Source of the DNA: Curvibacter lanceolatus ATCC 14669
GTDB lineage: Bacteria; Pseudomonadota; Gammaproteobacteria; Burkholderiales; Burkholderiaceae_C
Assembly: GCF_000381265.1 (NCBI RefSeq)
Contig: NZ_KB906258.1
Span: forward strand, 157,463 to 221,462
Reading direction: 5' to 3'
DNA: 64,000 nucleotides
The translations under genes were made by a program, and so were the position numbers. Shown here one piece after another: positions 49,634-60,879 of this stretch (position 1 is its first letter; the number at the start of each line of letters is the position of its first letter). The notes under the pieces are model-generated. The model was not told the DNA's origin. It did no database searches and worked only from the letters and a program-made list of their open reading frames with translations.

Positions 49634-49649
49634 TGGCCTGCTTCTTGCA
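49634..49649 (+). promoter_or_regulatory. Sigma-54-like promoter of the NCS2 permease
   Basis: TGGCCTGCTTCTTGCA has GG-N10-GC spacing and differs from consensus at two positions. Predicted start 49660, giving a leader of about 142 nt that contains the GntR-type site at 49691-49707. Confidence 0.55.
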
Positions 49650-49801: not shown

Positions 49802-51289
49802 ATGAATCCAGCGGTCCACCCCGTCGACGAACGCCTTCCCATCAACCGATTGGCCGCCCTGGGCCTGCAGCACGTGCTGGTCATGTATGCCGGCGCGATT
49901 GCCGTGCCGCTGATCATCGGCCGCGCCCTCAAGCTCGACCCCGAGCAGGTGGCCATGCTGATCTCGGCCGACCTGTTCTGCTGCGGCCTGGTCACGCTGA
50001 TCCAGGCACTGGGCGCCACCCCGTGGTTCGGCATCAAACTGCCGGTGATGATGGGGGTCACCTTTGCCTCGGTCGGCCCGATGGTGGCGATCGCCAACAG
50101 CCACCCCGGCCTGGCCGGGGCCCAACTGATCTTTGGCTCGATCATTGGCGCCGGCATCATCTCGATCCTCATCGCCCCGGTGGTCAGCCGCTTGTTGCGC
50201 TTTTTTCCGCCGGTAGTCACCGGTACCCTGATCATGGTGATCGGCATCAGCCTGATGCGCGTCGGCATCAACTGGATTTTCGGCAACCCCGTGGGCCCCA
50301 CCGCCCCCAGCGTGCCCGACCCCGAACACCTGCGCTGGCTGGCCGAGGCCGGCAAGCTGGCTTCGGCCCCGGGCTCGGCCTTGCCGGCCGTGCCCAAGGG
50401 CCTGGCCATCCTGCCCACCGTGCCCAACCCCAAATACGCCGACCTGATGGGCGTGGGCGTGGCCGCCCTGGTGCTGGCCTCCATCCTGGCGATCAACCGC
50501 TTTGCGCGTGGCTTTGCGGCCAACATCTCGGTGCTGCTGGGCATCGTCATCGGCGGTGTGGTGTCGGTGGCCCTGGGGCTGATGACCTTCGAGAAGGTCG
50601 GCAAGGCCCACTGGTTCGACCTCGTGCTGCCCTTCGAGATCGCCACCCCGGTGTTCGACCCGCTGCTGATCCTGACCATGACCGTGGTCATGCTGGTGGT
50701 GATGATCGAATCGACCGGCATGTTCCTGGCCCTGGGCGAGATGACCGAGCGCAAGGTCGACAACAAGGCCCTGACCGCCGGCCTGCGCACCGATGGCCTG
50801 GGCACCCTGATCGGGGGCCTGTTCAACACCTTCCCCTACACCAGCTTCTCGCAGAACGTGGGCCTGGTGGCGGTGACCGGCGTGCGCAGCCGCTTTGTGT
50901 GCGTGGCCGGCGGCATCATCCTGATCGTGCTGGGCCTGCTGCCCAAGATGGCGGCCCTGGTCGAGTCCCTGCCCACCGTGGTGCTGGGTGGCGCCGGCCT
51001 GGTGATGTTCGGCATGGTGGCCACCACCGGCATCCGCATCCTGGGGGGTGTGGACTTCAAGGACAACCGCCACAACGCGCTGATCGTCGCGATTTCCATC
51101 GGTGTGGGCATGATCCCGCTGCTGGCTCCCAACTTCCGCCAGTGGATGCCGCATGCCATCCACCCGCTGATCGAATCGGGCATCCTGCTGGCCACCATCA
51201 GCGCAGTGCTGCTGAACCTTTTCTTCAACGGTGCACGCCACGACGAGGAAGCCATTCGAGCCGCTGCTCGTCAATCCGACAGCCATTGA
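49802..51289 (+). CDS. NCS2 family xanthine/urate permease
   Basis: 495 aa from ATG 49802. About 12-14 membrane helices. NCS2 motifs: GLQHVLVMYAGAIAVPLIIG, MGVTFASVGPM, MVVMIESTGMFLALGEMT (Glu of the substrate site) and FPYTSFSQNVGLVAVTGVRSR with the conserved Asn-Val pair. Imports xanthine, urate or uracil with protons. The shared operator with puuD and uraH favours xanthine/urate over uracil. Confidence 0.9.
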   Translation: MNPAVHPVDERLPINRLAALGLQHVLVMYAGAIAVPLIIGRALKLDPEQVAMLISADLFCCGLVTLIQALGATPWFGIKLPVMMGVTFASVGPMVAIANSHPGLAGAQLIFGSIIGAGIISILIAPVVSRLLRFFPPVVTGTLIMVIGISLMRVGINWIFGNPVGPTAPSVPDPEHLRWLAEAGKLASAPGSALPAVPKGLAILPTVPNPKYADLMGVGVAALVLASILAINRFARGFAANISVLLGIVIGGVVSVALGLMTFEKVGKAHWFDLVLPFEIATPVFDPLLILTMTVVMLVVMIESTGMFLALGEMTERKVDNKALTAGLRTDGLGTLIGGLFNTFPYTSFSQNVGLVAVTGVRSRFVCVAGGIILIVLGLLPKMAALVESLPTVVLGGAGLVMFGMVATTGIRILGGVDFKDNRHNALIVAISIGVGMIPLLAPNFRQWMPHAIHPLIESGILLATISAVLLNLFFNGARHDEEAIRAAARQSDSH

Positions 51290-53803: not shown

Positions 53804-53820
53804 AGGCACTGTTTTTGCTA
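53804..53820 (+). promoter_or_regulatory. Sigma-54 promoter of the NMT1-type ABC importer operon
   Basis: AGGCACTGTTTTTGCT (53804-53819): GG-N10-GC spacing and close match to TGGCACGN4TTGCT. Predicted start near 53830, 21 bp before the receptor ATG. Confidence 0.65.
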
Positions 53821-53850: not shown

Positions 53851-54879
53851 ATGCAAAAACGTAGCTTTATCCAAGCGGGTCTGGCCCTGAGCCTGGCCCT
53901 GGCCCTGGGCAGCGCCCAAGCCCAAAATACCCCCATCAAGTTCCAGCTCGACTGGCGCTTTGAAGGTCCTGCCGCGCTATTCCTGCTGCCCGCCGCCAAG
54001 GGCTACTTCAAGGACGCCAAGCTCGATGTCACGGTGGATGCGGGCAACGGCTCGGGCGGGGCGGTGCAGCGCGTGGCCTCGGGCAGCTACGACATGGGCT
54101 TTGCCGATCTGGCCGCCCTGATGGAATTCCAGGCCAACAACCCCGACGCCCCCAACAAGCCGGTGGCCATCATGATGGTCTACAACAACACGCCGGCCTC
54201 GGTCATGGCGCTCAAGAAGAGCGGCATCACCAAGCCAGCCGACCTGAACGGCAAGAAGCTCGGCGCCCCGGTGTTCGACGCAGGTCGCCGGGCCTTCCCG
54301 ATCTTTGCCAAGGCCAACCAGGTGGGTAGCGTGCAGTGGACCGCCATGGACCCGCCGCTGCGCGAGACCATGTTGGTGCGTGGCGACATCGACGCCATCA
54401 CCGGCTTCACCTTCACCTCGCTGCTCAACCTGGAGGCGCGCGGCGCCAAGGCCAGCGACGTGGTGGTGATGCCCTACTCGGAACTCGGGGTGAAGCTGTA
54501 CGGCAATGCCATCATCGCCTCGCCCAAGCTGCTCAAGGAGAACCCCGCCGCCGTGAAGGCCTTCCTGCTGGCCTTCACCAAGGGCGCCAAGGAAGTCATC
54601 GCCAAGCCCGAGGCCGCCATTGAGTACGTGAAGCAGCGCGACGGCATCATCAACAGCGAGCTGGAAGCCCGCCGCCTGAAACTGGCCATCGACACTGTGA
54701 TCAACAGCCCCGACGCGCGAGCCGAAGGCTTTGGTCAGGTGAACGCAGCGCGCCTGTCGCTGATGGCCTCGCAGGTGTCCGATGCCTATGCCACCAAGAC
54801 CCGCGCCAACCCCGACACCGCCTGGACCGGCGCCTACCTGCCCTCGGCCGCCGAACTCAACATCCTGCCGCGCAAGTAA
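53851..54879 (+). CDS. NMT1/THI5-like ABC transporter substrate-binding protein (importer 1)
   Basis: 342 aa from ATG 53851, with GGAG 9 nt upstream. Signal peptide about 1-22 (LALSLALALGSAQAQ). NMT1-like domain: FQLDWRFEGPAALFLLPAAKGYF, DAGNGSGGAVQRVASGSYDMGFADL. Paralogue of the receptor at 58779. Heads an operon with ATPase, permease and a nucleobase deaminase. NMT1-type receptors bind thiamine precursors, pyrimidines, purines or sulfonates. The deaminase and the xanthine-riboswitch-like neighbour point to a purine. Confidence 0.9.
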   Translation: MQKRSFIQAGLALSLALALGSAQAQNTPIKFQLDWRFEGPAALFLLPAAKGYFKDAKLDVTVDAGNGSGGAVQRVASGSYDMGFADLAALMEFQANNPDAPNKPVAIMMVYNNTPASVMALKKSGITKPADLNGKKLGAPVFDAGRRAFPIFAKANQVGSVQWTAMDPPLRETMLVRGDIDAITGFTFTSLLNLEARGAKASDVVVMPYSELGVKLYGNAIIASPKLLKENPAAVKAFLLAFTKGAKEVIAKPEAAIEYVKQRDGIINSELEARRLKLAIDTVINSPDARAEGFGQVNAARLSLMASQVSDAYATKTRANPDTAWTGAYLPSAAELNILPRK

Positions 54880-57105: not shown

Positions 57106-57133
57106 AGCCCGCCCCGGTTAGCCCGCCCCGGTT
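57106..57133. repeat. 14-bp perfect tandem duplication
   Basis: AGCCCGCCCCGGTT occurs twice back to back (57106-57119, 57120-57133) between convergent genes. The second copy reaches the last base of the stop codon of the oxygenase gene. Probably replication slippage. Confidence 0.7.
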
Positions 57134-58161
57134 CAATACGGCTTGAAGTTCGCCGCCACGCGCTGGCGCAGGTAGTCGCCCGCCGTGATGGCCGGGTACT
57201 TCTTCTGCGGGCCTTCGATCACCGCATCGCGGTTGGCCTGGCAGAAGAAGGCCACGCTGTAGCGGGGGCCCATGTACTCACCGGGTTGAGGGTTCTTCAC
57301 GCGGTGGAAGTTGGAGGGCAGCAGGTCATCGCTCCAGCGCATCAGCATGTCGCCAATGTTGCAGGTGATGGCCGCCTCATCGGGTTCCACCGAGGTCCAG
57401 GCCTGCGAATCCATCTCCTTGCCCGGGCACACCTGCAGGCCACCCTGGCCCGGGCGTTGGTACAGCAGGGTCAGGCAGTCGAAATCGGTGTGGGCGCCGG
57501 CCCGCCACAGGTCCAGGTGGGCCTGGGCCTCGGGCGGGATGGCGTAGTAATGCAGCAGGCGCAGCGTGCTTTGGTACTCGGGGCTGGCCGGGTCGTGCGC
57601 ACCGGTGAAAAAGTCGCTGGCAAAGCCCAGCTTGTCGGCAAAGCACGACAGCACCTTCATGCCCAAGGCCCAGCAGTCGGCCTCGAAGGCCAGCATGGTG
57701 GCCTGGAAGCCCGGCAGCTCGGCCTCGCTGGGCCACAGGCCCGCCATGTGGGGGCGCGTGATCTGATACGACTCCTTCTGGTCGGGGGTGCCCGTGCTGG
57801 GCCGCACCTGGGCCTTGGTCTCCCAGCTCACGTTGTTGGCCTTCTGGTGCGGCCACTGGGCCTTCACGGCATCGGGCAGGGCAAAGAAGCGCTCCGAGGT
57901 GGCAAAGGCCTCGCGCACCGCCGCCAGGTCGATGCCGTGGTCCACGATCTGGAAGAAGCCGACATCCACGGCGGCCGACCACAGCTCATCGGCGATCTGG
58001 GCCTTGCGCTGGTCGTAGTCGGCCAGCGAGATGCGGCGGATCTCACGCTGGCCGGTTTCAGAGCCCATGGCGCCCATGCGCGACTCCTTGGCCAGTTCAG
58101 ACTGGGCCGAGGCGGTGGGGGGCAAAGGGGTGGAGGGGGACAAGAGGGTGGCAGTGCTCAT
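57133..58161 (-). CDS. Isopenicillin-N-synthase-like 2-oxoglutarate/Fe(II) dioxygenase (oxygenase 1)
   Basis: 342 aa. N-terminal DIOX_N-like region (about 40-150: ELWSAAVDVGFFQIVDHGID). Double-stranded beta-helix with iron ligands H224 and D226 (GAHTDFDCLTLL) and H286 (NFHRVKNP), and 2-oxoglutarate-binding R300/S302 (RYSVAFF). All catalytic residues are present. Substrate unknown. Thymine 7-hydroxylase, a pyrimidine-base oxidase, belongs to this broad family. The 5' leader carries a xanthine-riboswitch-like aptamer under a sigma-54-like promoter, so a purine substrate is a reasonable hypothesis. Confidence 0.9.
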   Translation of the reverse strand: MSTATLLSPSTPLPPTASAQSELAKESRMGAMGSETGQREIRRISLADYDQRKAQIADELWSAAVDVGFFQIVDHGIDLAAVREAFATSERFFALPDAVKAQWPHQKANNVSWETKAQVRPSTGTPDQKESYQITRPHMAGLWPSEAELPGFQATMLAFEADCWALGMKVLSCFADKLGFASDFFTGAHDPASPEYQSTLRLLHYYAIPPEAQAHLDLWRAGAHTDFDCLTLLYQRPGQGGLQVCPGKEMDSQAWTSVEPDEAAITCNIGDMLMRWSDDLLPSNFHRVKNPQPGEYMGPRYSVAFFCQANRDAVIEGPQKKYPAITAGDYLRQRVAANFKPY

Positions 58162-58339
58162 TCAGGGCTCCTTGAATCGGAATCGGTGGGTGTGACAACA
58201 CAGCCCGCGCTCCGGAGACACCCGCCCGTTCCAGCGGAAAAATCCGATCGAAGACGATCCGAATCAATCCAGCCGGCCGGGCAGGCCCCTGAAGCGCATG
58301 CGGGCACCGGCTTCCTGGGAAGCTGGCCCCGCCGGGCCT

Positions 58340-58411
58340 CAAGAGCAATTCCCGGTCTGCCCCAGGCCCGGCACACCGGCCGGACAGGGCAGCTGAACGC
58401 TTCTACTCTTG
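58340..58411 (-). ncRNA. NMT1-motif-like (xanthine) riboswitch aptamer in the oxygenase 1 leader
   Basis: RNA read on the minus strand starts with CAAGAG pairing to CUCUUG at the other end (P1, 6 bp). The 5' internal loop is UAGAAGCGUUCAG. A long P2 hairpin follows (CUGCCC/GGGCAG and CCGGC/GCCGG). The 3' loop is CCGGGAAUUG. The loop sequences match the plus-strand copy at 58583-58631, while P2 differs but still pairs. The NMT1-motif class senses xanthine/urate upstream of purine-oxidation genes in Proteobacteria; assignment is from memory of that class and genomic context. Confidence 0.65.
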
Positions 58412-58421
58412 CCAGTGATCA

Positions 58422-58437
58422 AGCAGGTTTCAGGCCA
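58422..58437 (-). promoter_or_regulatory. Sigma-54 promoter of oxygenase 1
   Basis: Minus strand TGGCCTGAAACCTGCT: GG-N10-GC spacing, TGGC/TGCT boxes. Counting 12 bases from the -12 C puts +1 at 58411, the first base of the aptamer. Confidence 0.7.
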
Positions 58438-58555
58438 GGCCCAGGCGGCCTGACGCGCACCAGCGTGGCGCAGAACGCCTCAGGCCGGTGCCGGCGCCTG
58501 CGTTTGAGAGGCCCTTGATCGCACTTTGTGCCCCCCTGTGGCGCCCCAGCCGGGG
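58438..58555. other. Shared control region between divergent sigma-54 promoters
   Basis: 118 bp with no gene. It should hold the enhancer site(s) for a sigma-54 activator. Inverted elements include GCGCACCAGCGTGGCGC (58457-58473) and GCACTTTGTGC (58521-58531). Neither matches an NtrC site exactly. Confidence 0.45.
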
Positions 58556-58571
58556 TGGCATGAAAACTGCA
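58556..58571 (+). promoter_or_regulatory. Sigma-54 promoter of the receptor 2/oxygenase 2 operon
   Basis: TGGCATGAAAACTGCA differs from the TGGCACGN4TTGCA consensus at two positions with exact spacing. Predicted +1 is 58582, one base before the aptamer P1 stem. Confidence 0.75.
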
Positions 58572-58582
58572 CCCGATCCCCC

Positions 58583-58631
58583 TCAAGAGTAGAAGCGTTC
58601 AGCGGCCCAGCCGCCCGGAAATTGCTCTTGA
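58583..58631 (+). ncRNA. NMT1-motif-like (xanthine) riboswitch aptamer in the receptor 2 leader
   Basis: P1: UCAAGAG (58583-58589) pairs with CUCUUGA (58625-58631). 5' loop UAGAAGCGUUCA, short P2 hairpin GCGGC-CCA-GCCGC (58602-58614), 3' loop CCGGAAAUUG. Two further hairpins downstream (CACCGGGT/ACCCGGTG 58646-58667; GGATGCGG/CCGCATCC 58682-58711) may be the expression platform. The aptamer is about 150 nt before the receptor ATG. Confidence 0.7.
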
Positions 58632-58778
58632 AGTCAGGCGCAGGCCACCGGGTTGCCCCACCCGGTGTAGCGCTGCCTTCAGGATGCGGGCCGGTCGCCC
58701 GGGCCGCATCCCGGGGGCGCGCCCGCCCGTGCCTCCCGACCCACGTGCCCCACACGCCACTTGAGGAGTGCTCTTTCC

Positions 58779-59819
58779 ATGCAACGCCGTTCCCTTCTGC
58801 GCGCCAGCGCCGCCGCCACACTCGCCGTCACCGCCCCCCTGGTCACCCCCTGGGTGCGCGCCCAGGGCTCGCTGCAGAAATTCAAGTTCAACCTGGGCTG
58901 GAAGATCGAAGCCTCGGGCGCCGGCTTTCTGCTGGCCCAGCAACGCGGTTACTACAAGGACGTGGGGCTGGACGTGAGCATCGACACCGGCAACGGCTCG
59001 GCCGCTGCCATCAGCCTGGTGGGCAGCGGCGCCTACGACGTGGCCTCGGCCGACCTGTCGACCATGATCGAATTCAACCTGGCCAACCCGACGGCGCAAC
59101 TGCTGGCCGTGGCCATCCAGTACGACCTGAACCCCAACTCGATCATCGTGCGCAAGGACGGCCCCATCAAGAAGCCGGCCGACCTGGCCGGCAAGACCTT
59201 GCTGGGCCAGCCCTTCAACGCCTCGCGCAAGCTGTTTCCGGCCTTTGCCAAGGCCCAGGGCTTCGACCCCTCGGGCGTGAAGTGGGAGAACGTGTCGCCC
59301 GACATCGGCGACACCCGCTTCGTGAAGGGCGACTTCGACGGCGCGGCCTACTTCTTCTTCACCGGCCTGCTCAACCTCAAGGCGCGCGGCATGGGGCCCG
59401 AACAGCTCACGGTGTTCCGCTTCTCCGACCTGGGCATGAAGTCGTACGGCAACGGCCTGGTGGCCAACCCCAAGAGCCTGCAGGAACGCCCCGACGCCAT
59501 GAAAGCCTTTGTGAAGGCCACCACCCGTGGCTGGATCGAGGTGATGGCCGACCCGCGTGCCGGCGCCGCCGCCATCAAGACCCGCGAGCCACTGGCCAAT
59601 GAAGAGCTGGAGTACGAACGCCTCAAGCTGATCGTGGACGGCACCATGAAGACCGCCGAAACCCGAGCCAATGGCTGGGGCGCGGCCACACCGGCGCGGC
59701 TGCAGGCCACCATCGACGAGACCGTCACCGCCTTCGGCCTCAAGGGCTCGCCCACGCTGGCCGAGTTCTGGACCGACCGCTTCCTGCCCACGGCAGCCGA
59801 GCGCAAGCTCAAGGCCTGA
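58779..59819 (+). CDS. NMT1/THI5-like substrate-binding protein (receptor 2)
   Basis: 346 aa from ATG 58779, with GAGGAG 10 nt upstream. Twin-Arg-type signal (MQRRSLLRASAAATL, cleavage near VRAQ). NMT1-like domain similar to receptor 1: FNLGWKIEASGAGFLLAQQRGYY, DTGNGSAAAISLVGSGAYDV. It has no ATPase or permease gene of its own, so it probably docks on importer 1 and widens its ligand range. Under the riboswitch-like leader; cotranscribed with oxygenase 2 (40 bp gap). Confidence 0.9.
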   Translation: MQRRSLLRASAAATLAVTAPLVTPWVRAQGSLQKFKFNLGWKIEASGAGFLLAQQRGYYKDVGLDVSIDTGNGSAAAISLVGSGAYDVASADLSTMIEFNLANPTAQLLAVAIQYDLNPNSIIVRKDGPIKKPADLAGKTLLGQPFNASRKLFPAFAKAQGFDPSGVKWENVSPDIGDTRFVKGDFDGAAYFFFTGLLNLKARGMGPEQLTVFRFSDLGMKSYGNGLVANPKSLQERPDAMKAFVKATTRGWIEVMADPRAGAAAIKTREPLANEELEYERLKLIVDGTMKTAETRANGWGAATPARLQATIDETVTAFGLKGSPTLAEFWTDRFLPTAAERKLKA

Positions 59820-59859: not shown

Positions 59860-60879
59860 ATGCCGCAACTGCCCATCCTGGACCTGACCGATGCCCTGCT
59901 GCCGGGTGCCCCGCGCAGCGCTGACGTGGCGCGCCAGTTTGGCGCCGCGGCCCGCGACTCGGGCTTCTTCTACGTGCGCCACCACGGCGTGCCCGAGGCG
60001 CTGATCGCGCAGCAGTTCGCCCTGGCCGAGCAACTGCTGACCCTGCCGGCCAGCGTGCGCGAGGCCTTCTCGATCCGCCACTCGCCCTCCTCACGGGGCT
60101 TTGAGGCCCTGGGCGCCCAGACCCTGGACGCCCAGGCCCACCCCGACCTCAAGGAAAGCTTCTACTGCGGCCTGGCCTACCCCGACGACCACCCCTATGT
60201 GCGCGCCGGCTACCAGACCTATGGCCACAACCAATGGCCGCCGCAGCTGCCCGAGGCCCCGGCCCGCTGCGAGGCCTACATGCAGGCCATGCTGGCCCTG
60301 GCCCGCCGCCTGATGCAGCTGATGGCCCTGTCGCTGGGCCTGGCCGAAACCTACTTCGACCCCAGCAACGGCAGCCCCATGGTGACGCTGCGCATGGTGC
60401 GCTACCCGCCCCACCCCGACGGGGCCGACGAGCGCACCTTCGGGGCCGGCGCCCACACCGACTGGGGCGCGCTGACCCTGCTGGCGCAAGACAGCCACGG
60501 GGGCCTGGAGGTGTGCACACCCTCGGGCGAGTGGATCGAAGCCACTCCCCTGCCCGGCACCCTGGTGGTCAACCTGGGCGACATGATCCCGCGCTGGACC
60601 AACGGGCTGTATCACTCCAACCCGCACCGGGTGCGCAACCGGCACTCGGGCGGGGCAGCCCGGCACTCCATCCCCTTCTTCTACGAGCCCGACTACCTGG
60701 CCCCGATCGAGCCCGTGCCCGGCACCGTGGCCCCGGGCGAGACGCCGCGCTACAGCCCCTGCACGGCGGGCGAGCACCTGCGCCAGATGTACCTCAAGAC
60801 CTACGCGCCAGCGGCCCTGTCACCTGCCACCGCCACCGCCGCCAACACCTCTGCCCCCGCTGCGCAGGCCACCGCATGA
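59860..60879 (+). CDS. Isopenicillin-N-synthase-like 2-oxoglutarate/Fe(II) dioxygenase (oxygenase 2)
   Basis: 339 aa from ATG 59860. DIOX_N-like N terminus (FGAAARDSGFFYVRHHGVP). Iron ligands H199 and D201 (GAHTDWGALTLL) and H256 (NPHRVRN); 2-oxoglutarate residues R268/S270 (RHSIPFF). Full active site. Low-complexity Ala/Thr tail after residue 317. Only distantly similar to oxygenase 1, so the two likely have different substrates or act in sequence. The stop overlaps the next start (ATGA). Substrate unknown; purine or derivative inferred. Confidence 0.9.
   Translation: MPQLPILDLTDALLPGAPRSADVARQFGAAARDSGFFYVRHHGVPEALIAQQFALAEQLLTLPASVREAFSIRHSPSSRGFEALGAQTLDAQAHPDLKESFYCGLAYPDDHPYVRAGYQTYGHNQWPPQLPEAPARCEAYMQAMLALARRLMQLMALSLGLAETYFDPSNGSPMVTLRMVRYPPHPDGADERTFGAGAHTDWGALTLLAQDSHGGLEVCTPSGEWIEATPLPGTLVVNLGDMIPRWTNGLYHSNPHRVRNRHSGGAARHSIPFFYEPDYLAPIEPVPGTVAPGETPRYSPCTAGEHLRQMYLKTYAPAALSPATATAANTSAPAAQATA

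Follow-up and report, generated by a model that had tools for sequence, protein, structure and literature searches.

The 64 kb stretch of Curvibacter lanceolatus DNA that was analysed, hereafter the window, carries two divergently oriented copies of an RNA element in the gap between a gene for a 2-oxoglutarate (2OG)-Fe(II) oxygenase and an apparent unit encoding a receptor and a second oxygenase. The two RNAs and the genes that follow them are:

57133–58161, minus strand: 2OG-Fe(II) oxygenase OX1, downstream of the left aptamer (ATG 58161)
58338–58413, minus strand: xanthine (NMT1) aptamer heading the oxygenase gene 57133–58161 (RF03054, 44.2 bits)
58582–58632, plus strand: xanthine (NMT1) aptamer heading the NMT1-receptor/oxygenase unit (RF03054, 54.9 bits)
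58779–59819, plus strand: NMT1/THI5-like ABC receptor (PF09084, E 1.3e-36), downstream of the right aptamer
59860–60879, plus strand: second 2OG-Fe(II) oxygenase OX2 (PF03171 and PF14226; scanned from 59854), in the same apparent unit as the receptor

The nearest solved relative of OX1 by sequence is thymine dioxygenase (PDB 5c3p, E 5.7e-34), likewise a 2OG enzyme; 5c3p acts on a nucleobase. OX1 is 96% identical to an oxygenase of Curvibacter gracilis. The window also encodes XdhA, XdhB, XdhC, the xanthine permease PbuX, urate oxidase, the allantoinase PuuE, UreD, and the urea transporter ATPase UrtE, and as a whole it reads as a xanthine-to-urea nitrogen island. Both rpoN and ntrC were found above cut-offs in the genome.

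An Rfam covariance scan of the window, which the initial annotation had proposed as a check, matched the right copy (58582–58632, plus strand) and the left copy (58413–58338, minus strand) to RF03054 with E-values of 1.8e-9 and 1.6e-6, respectively, both above the curated cut-off (gathering score) of 36 bits. No other family reached its gathering score in the window, and the two copies were the sole RF03054 matches in the genome. The coordinates, strands, and RNA family given by that annotation are thus correct, and zero non-standard pairs were marked in the alignments of either copy to the model. The core loops and P1 are almost identical between the copies, which have the exact 20-nt block CAAGAGTAGAAGCGTTCAGC in common (in a shuffle control, even a common 10-mer appeared in only 4 of 2,000 shuffled pairs), while P2b differs in sequence and length and still pairs. 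The covariation claimed earlier therefore holds for P2b and not for P1, since the six P1 pairs are invariant between the copies.

All of the residues A8, A9, G10, C11, G35, and U40, at which single-base changes abolish xanthine binding (PMC8266621), are present in both copies, and the 3' core CCGGAAAUUG of the plus-strand copy equals that of the crystallised Ideonella RNA in the structural study of the xanthine riboswitch (Xu 2021, PMC8266621). The alignments support the assignment of both RNAs to the known xanthine riboswitch class RF03054 as predicted sensors. In five Curvibacter genomes each side retains its own type of P2b and 3' core, an observation that speaks against gene conversion between the arms.

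The class itself is established, and its ligands are known to be xanthine and uric acid (Yu and Breaker 2020, PMC7373994). The window resembles the class as published (PMC7373994, PMC8266621) in its fit to the covariance model, the essential bases, its occurrence in Proteobacteria, and a leader with no clear terminator; it also has the known gene context, with an NMT1 receptor and a pcbC-like oxygenase downstream and a TadA-like deaminase nearby. The gene order described by the initial annotation, in which each copy heads a transcript with a 2OG oxygenase, the right one via the NMT1 receptor first, was likewise borne out. An opposed NMT1 pair has been depicted in Hydrogenophaga intermedia S1, with NMT1, pcbC, and tadA genes (PMC7373994, Fig. 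5 inset), and like the window it comprises two aptamers in opposing orientations. Because PMC7373994 already describes the class together with its ligands and an opposed pair, the interpretation given in the annotation is not novel. The same paper describes genes for the breakdown of oxidised purines as missing from the targets of the class, the purpose of which it calls not readily apparent.

In a survey of the family to which Curvibacter belongs, the RNA was detected at E ≤ 0.001 in 75 of 399 sampled genomes, or in 76 genomes together with another member of the genus (G004). Two or more aptamers are carried by 52 of the 76, and in 45 of these 52 they form a divergent pair with a gap of 59–305 nt; in 36 of the 45 pairs the first gene met on one side encodes an OX1 relative, with an NMT1 receptor on the other. 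Outside the family, the genomes sampled from the order and the class gave few matches and no divergent pair. The divergent pair, published as a single example in H. intermedia S1 (PMC7373994), is the main arrangement in the bacterial family of Curvibacter, which is new here. A scan of 15 of 23 named loci also revealed it in C. gracilis, Hylemonella gracilis, and Xenophilus, and one aptamer copy only in Pseudovibrio flavus.

The gap between the two aptamers of the window contains three putative regulatory sites:

58422–58437, minus strand: sigma-54 promoter motif TGGCCTGAAACCTGCT, matching 9 of 12 consensus bases, predicted +1 at 58411
58457–58471, between both promoters: NtrC-like palindrome GCACCAGCGTGGCGC, 11 of 12 (0 of 200 gap shuffles reach this score)
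58556–58571, plus strand: sigma-54 promoter motif TGGCATGAAAACTGCA, matching 10 of 12 consensus bases, predicted +1 at 58582

Sigma-54 promoters have the consensus GG-N10-GC with TGGCAC/TTGC flanks, and the +1 positions were derived from the usual distance between the -12 element and the start; the palindrome was scored out of 12 against the NtrC consensus. A consensus scan of positions 58100–58850 for sigma-70 promoters found none. Across the whole window, 13 sigma-54 matches of at least 10/12 were found versus about 11 expected from the control rate, so the motif alone is weak evidence and its fixed spacing is decisive: the two promoters lie 19 and 21 nt from A6, distances typical of the class. 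Two more sigma-54-like motifs, each 10/12, lie on the plus strand shortly upstream of the xanthine permease gene (49634–49649; gene at 49802) and of a second NMT1 receptor gene (53804–53819; gene at 53851); they perhaps belong to the same nitrogen regulon, with scores near chance as judged by the same 13 matches.

A promoter was counted where the -12 C lay 17–22 nt before A6 and at least 9 of the 12 consensus positions matched. By this definition 82 of 90 paired aptamers, from 24 genera, have a sigma-54 motif, which is present on both sides in 37 of the 45 divergent pairs, compared with only 27 of 9,991 equal-size control slots from the same loci; the remaining 8 of the 90 have no motif at the class spacing. 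With the threshold lowered to at least 8/12 (134 of 9,991 control slots), a motif precedes 32 of 38 unpaired family aptamers (40 in all, with G047 and G215 left out of the promoter check) and 7 of 11 outside-family aptamers (13 matches, less two that have no core). These seven are exactly the ones above the Rfam cut-off; the four without a motif at the usual spacing fall below it, and two of the four have an 11/12 motif at 27 nt. A motif was also looked for at the Pseudovibrio aptamer (L133) and was absent there. Of the 45 gaps, only 17 have an NtrC-like site at p ≤ 0.05. In nitrogen regulons, divergent sigma-54/NtrC promoter pairs likewise consist of two -24/-12 promoters facing away from a common NtrC-like site; unlike in those, each of the two transcripts in the window is predicted to start with a riboswitch aptamer.

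The putative link between the aptamer and sigma-54, found at fixed spacing in nearly all tested family members, is new here. By word search, sigma-54 coupling is absent from the main texts of PMC7373994 and PMC8266621, and the searchable text of PMC12452182 and PMC10907184 contains no passage on the xanthine class. A literature search joining riboswitch or xanthine with sigma-54, mostly outside subscription papers, returned none on this link.

Other arrangements were also observed. In Acidovorax (L116–L119) and a metagenome-assembled genome (L121), two aptamers face each other 3–5 kb apart, and all eight aptamers of L116–L119 have sigma-54 motifs. Tandem aptamers 2.5–4.6 kb apart occur in five genomes (G064, G155, G247, G306, and G372; loci L082–L086), and in 5/5 the downstream copy has no sigma-54 motif at the usual place; this copy may therefore act as a switch inside a transcript that starts at a sigma-54 promoter. 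Sixteen family genomes (e.g., L050, L051, and L066) have a core variant that ends in GGUCAUUG and has GUUCAG on its 5' side. In the usual register this variant loses two P2a pairs, and it is on the oxygenase side in 16/16; its specificity or its P2a may be altered.

In the leaders of relatives, the 3' strand of P1 and the tail that follows it (GCUCUUGAA for the largest group) have a complementary element further downstream. Short leaders often use the Shine–Dalgarno sequence (SD) itself for this; examples of such partners are UUUCAGGAG for the tail UUGAA, UUUCCAGGAG for UGGAA, and CGAACCUGGGCC or CGAACCGGAGCC for AGUUCG. The P1 3' strand pairs with its own leader better than with shuffles at p ≤ 0.05 in 25 of 37 oxygenase-side and 13 of 44 receptor-side leaders, and the P1 5' strand, used as a control, in 1 of 37 and 3 of 44, with first-guess start codons, some of them wrong, in this test and corrected ones in the tail permutation and SD-opening analyses. 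Pairing of the P1 5' strand with the receptor SD, which has p-values of 0.035 in the window genome (G000) and 0.02 in the near-identical G002, was rejected as a candidate, being present in only those 3 of 44 receptor leaders.

Of the 90 paired aptamers, 82 had both a gene match and a start codon that could be used; one of these (the left leader of G028) was dropped, leaving 81 leaders, and removal of duplicates left 75 (45 short and 30 long) for the tail permutation. When the 10-nt tails were permuted among the 45 short leaders, the observed tail–SD pairing was reached in 0 of 2,000 permutations, relatedness not being corrected for. Once the constant GCUC is omitted the specificity is weak, with 48 of 2,000 permutations reaching the observed value in short leaders (again with relatedness uncorrected), 149 of 2,000 on the receptor side, and 202 of 2,000 for tails other than UUGA. 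In long leaders the same test was negative (1,615 of 2,000). Partial co-variation of the P1 3' strand and tail with the SD in short leaders is therefore suggested by these comparisons, supported but not proven. Moreover, in several tail types the P1 5' strand matches the tail no further than GAGUA, so the tail beyond this point would serve the downstream partner and not P1.

The cost of opening the SD was calculated with energy models that contain no ligand, Mg2+, or kinetics, for 48 short and 33 long leaders, including 16 oxygenase-side leaders with unpaired P2a bases. With the aptamer folded, SD opening became easier in 36 of 48 short leaders (by a mean of 2.74 kcal/mol) and harder in 4 of 48. 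Swapped-in aptamers gave a mean shift of 1.31 kcal/mol, and the leader's own aptamer had the larger effect in 37 of 48; the swapped aptamers also leaned ON in 33 of 48 and OFF in 7 of 48, so the ON sign is only partly specific. Among long leaders, 14 of 33 shifted towards ON and 8 of 33 towards OFF. Since SD pairing and the closing of P1 use the same bases, the ligand should free the SD, and for the short-leader relatives xanthine is predicted by this modelling to open the ribosome site (ON), opposite to the OFF behaviour of the construct in PMC7373994.

The leaders of the window are long (176 and 146 nt), whereas the distance to the ribosome binding site is called relatively short for the published class (PMC7373994). 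The elements relevant to pairing of the P1 3' strand in them are:

58168–58173, minus strand: SD-like AAGGAG of the oxygenase gene (ATG 58161), with a weaker match to the left P1 3' strand (-9.0 kcal/mol)
58284–58295, minus strand: left mid-leader partner GCUUCAGGGGCC, complementary to the P1 3' strand (-13.8 kcal/mol, p 0.045)
58337–58346, minus strand: left P1 3' strand and tail GCUCUUGAGG, from the leader pairing analysis
58624–58633, plus strand: right P1 3' strand and tail GCUCUUGAAG, from the leader pairing analysis
58676–58688, plus strand: right mid-leader partner CCUUCAGGAUGCG, complementary to the P1 3' strand (-12.2 kcal/mol, p 0.01)
58763–58768, plus strand: SD-like GAGGAG of the receptor gene (ATG 58779), the surroundings of which can pair with the right P1 3' strand (-10.0 kcal/mol)

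In both leaders the mid-leader partner lies 42–43 nt past the tail, well upstream of the SD. A comparable element is present at 39–45 nt in all ten leaders of five Curvibacter genomes, and the changes in it preserve pairing. More generally, among the 35 leaders above 100 nt the best partner begins 39–75 nt past the tail in 29, in most cases well away from the SD. Long oxygenase leaders (e.g., L060, L071, and L118) contain the P1 5' strand a second time (CUUCAAGAG), about 40–75 nt past the aptamer; in several of them a start codon comes next, and this sometimes shares the reading frame of the oxygenase. A small upstream ORF following the mid-leader partner was rejected as a general feature: its starts and frames vary, and neither the window nor G002 has one.

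Folded without constraint, the right leader pairs its SD region with the P1 3' strand and some of the core. Imposing the aptamer removes this pairing; the SD then finds a new partner close by in G000, whereas in G002 it pairs with the mid-leader partner. The effect of the folded aptamer on the SD-opening term is small and inconsistent: it changes by +2.2 kcal/mol in G000 and +0.2 kcal/mol in G002 for the left leader, and by -0.3 kcal/mol in G000 and -2.1 kcal/mol, towards OFF, in G002 for the right one; the right-hand value hardly changes in G000 and moves towards OFF in G002 because the released SD re-pairs elsewhere. It was also observed that, within the right leader (58582–58779, plus strand), the segment from the aptamer 3' core through the tail can, in both G000 and G002, pair almost perfectly over a long stretch with the SD and the spacer that precede the receptor ATG. 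The modelled folds support strand exchange in the window leaders, and by analogy with the short-leader relatives its direction would most likely be ON.

Taking these data together, we propose, as a reading that is somewhat more probable than its alternatives combined, that the back-to-back aptamers, each just past a sigma-54 motif, form a unit in which nitrogen limitation switches the genes on and xanthine tunes them through an ON strand exchange. Transcription would start on the P1 5' strand itself, at the predicted sigma-54 +1 positions 58582 and 58411, with phosphorylated NtrC presumably activating both divergent promoters from the common gap. In the ligand-free RNA the P1 3' strand would pair with its downstream partner, and xanthine would close P1 and so reclaim that strand. 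In short-leader relatives the partner is the SD itself, and the ligand would thereby open the ribosome site. In the window, the best partner is about 40 nt past the aptamer and before the SD, the right SD region being a second partner; the step from strand exchange to translation is proposed there by analogy, and is absent from the computed SD-opening costs.

The most serious alternative, although a rather doubtful one, retains the same sensors and sigma-54 promoters and has xanthine turn translation OFF, the freed mid-leader partner masking the ribosome site directly or via another fold. It agrees with the OFF reporter result published for an opposed-pair riboswitch from H. intermedia, obtained with one point mutant (PMC7373994), with the shifts of the right leader (-0.3 and -2.1 kcal/mol), and with the G002 fold in which the imposed aptamer leaves the SD paired with the mid-leader partner. 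The balance of 36 ON against 4 OFF among 48 short leaders and the partial co-variation of the P1 3' strand with the SD argue against it, and one would expect the substrate of a nitrogen-scavenging island to induce that island and not to shut it down.

It is fairly unlikely that the long leaders act on transcription instead, with a hairpin of the P1 3' strand and the mid-leader partner gating Rho-dependent or hairpin termination before the gene. The position of the partner in most leaders above 100 nt (29 of 35), mostly distant from the SD, would suit such a mechanism, as would a hairpin with a T-run in the left leader (58259–58246, minus strand). However, this candidate intrinsic terminator was rejected as not clearly above chance, with 2 terminator-like matches found in the region, one of which lies within the aptamer, against an expectation of 0.6 ± 0.8; its T-run is broken in G002, and PMC7373994 describes almost no terminators for the class. 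Finally, the possibility that the inverted arms with their common 20-nt block are a DNA operator or the ends of a mobile element, and not two RNAs, can be practically dismissed, as both arms fit the RNA covariance model, P2b differs yet pairs, and the divergent pair is conserved in 45 genomes, with the same gene order in 36.

The preferred ON reading may extend to the class as a whole: it is plausible, if still short of probable, that xanthine riboswitches are the first nucleotides of sigma-54 transcripts, mostly in divergent pairs with a single nitrogen-control gap in common, and act as ON switches through a P1 3' strand that serves as an anti-SD. If the sigma-54 start is correct, P1 would be short because the RNA begins there, and if the pairing with the ribosome site is read correctly, the 3' flank would be conserved beyond P1 because it matches that site.

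What is added to the published picture is the predicted sigma-54 link, a conserved divergent two-input unit, and a comparative ON prediction that contradicts the published OFF; the latter is a clear and testable clash. The unit, a sigma-54 promoter with an aptamer at the first base, is small and easily tested and used in reporters. Aptamers at predicted sigma-54 starts within a xanthine-to-urea island offer a simple purpose for the class, namely nitrogen scavenging, and judging from these sequence features, the divergent purine-use genes likely respond to nitrogen hunger and xanthine together. If the class-wide ON reading is true, bacteria would draw on purines only under nitrogen shortage combined with the presence of xanthine, which is the opposite of the OFF role in print.
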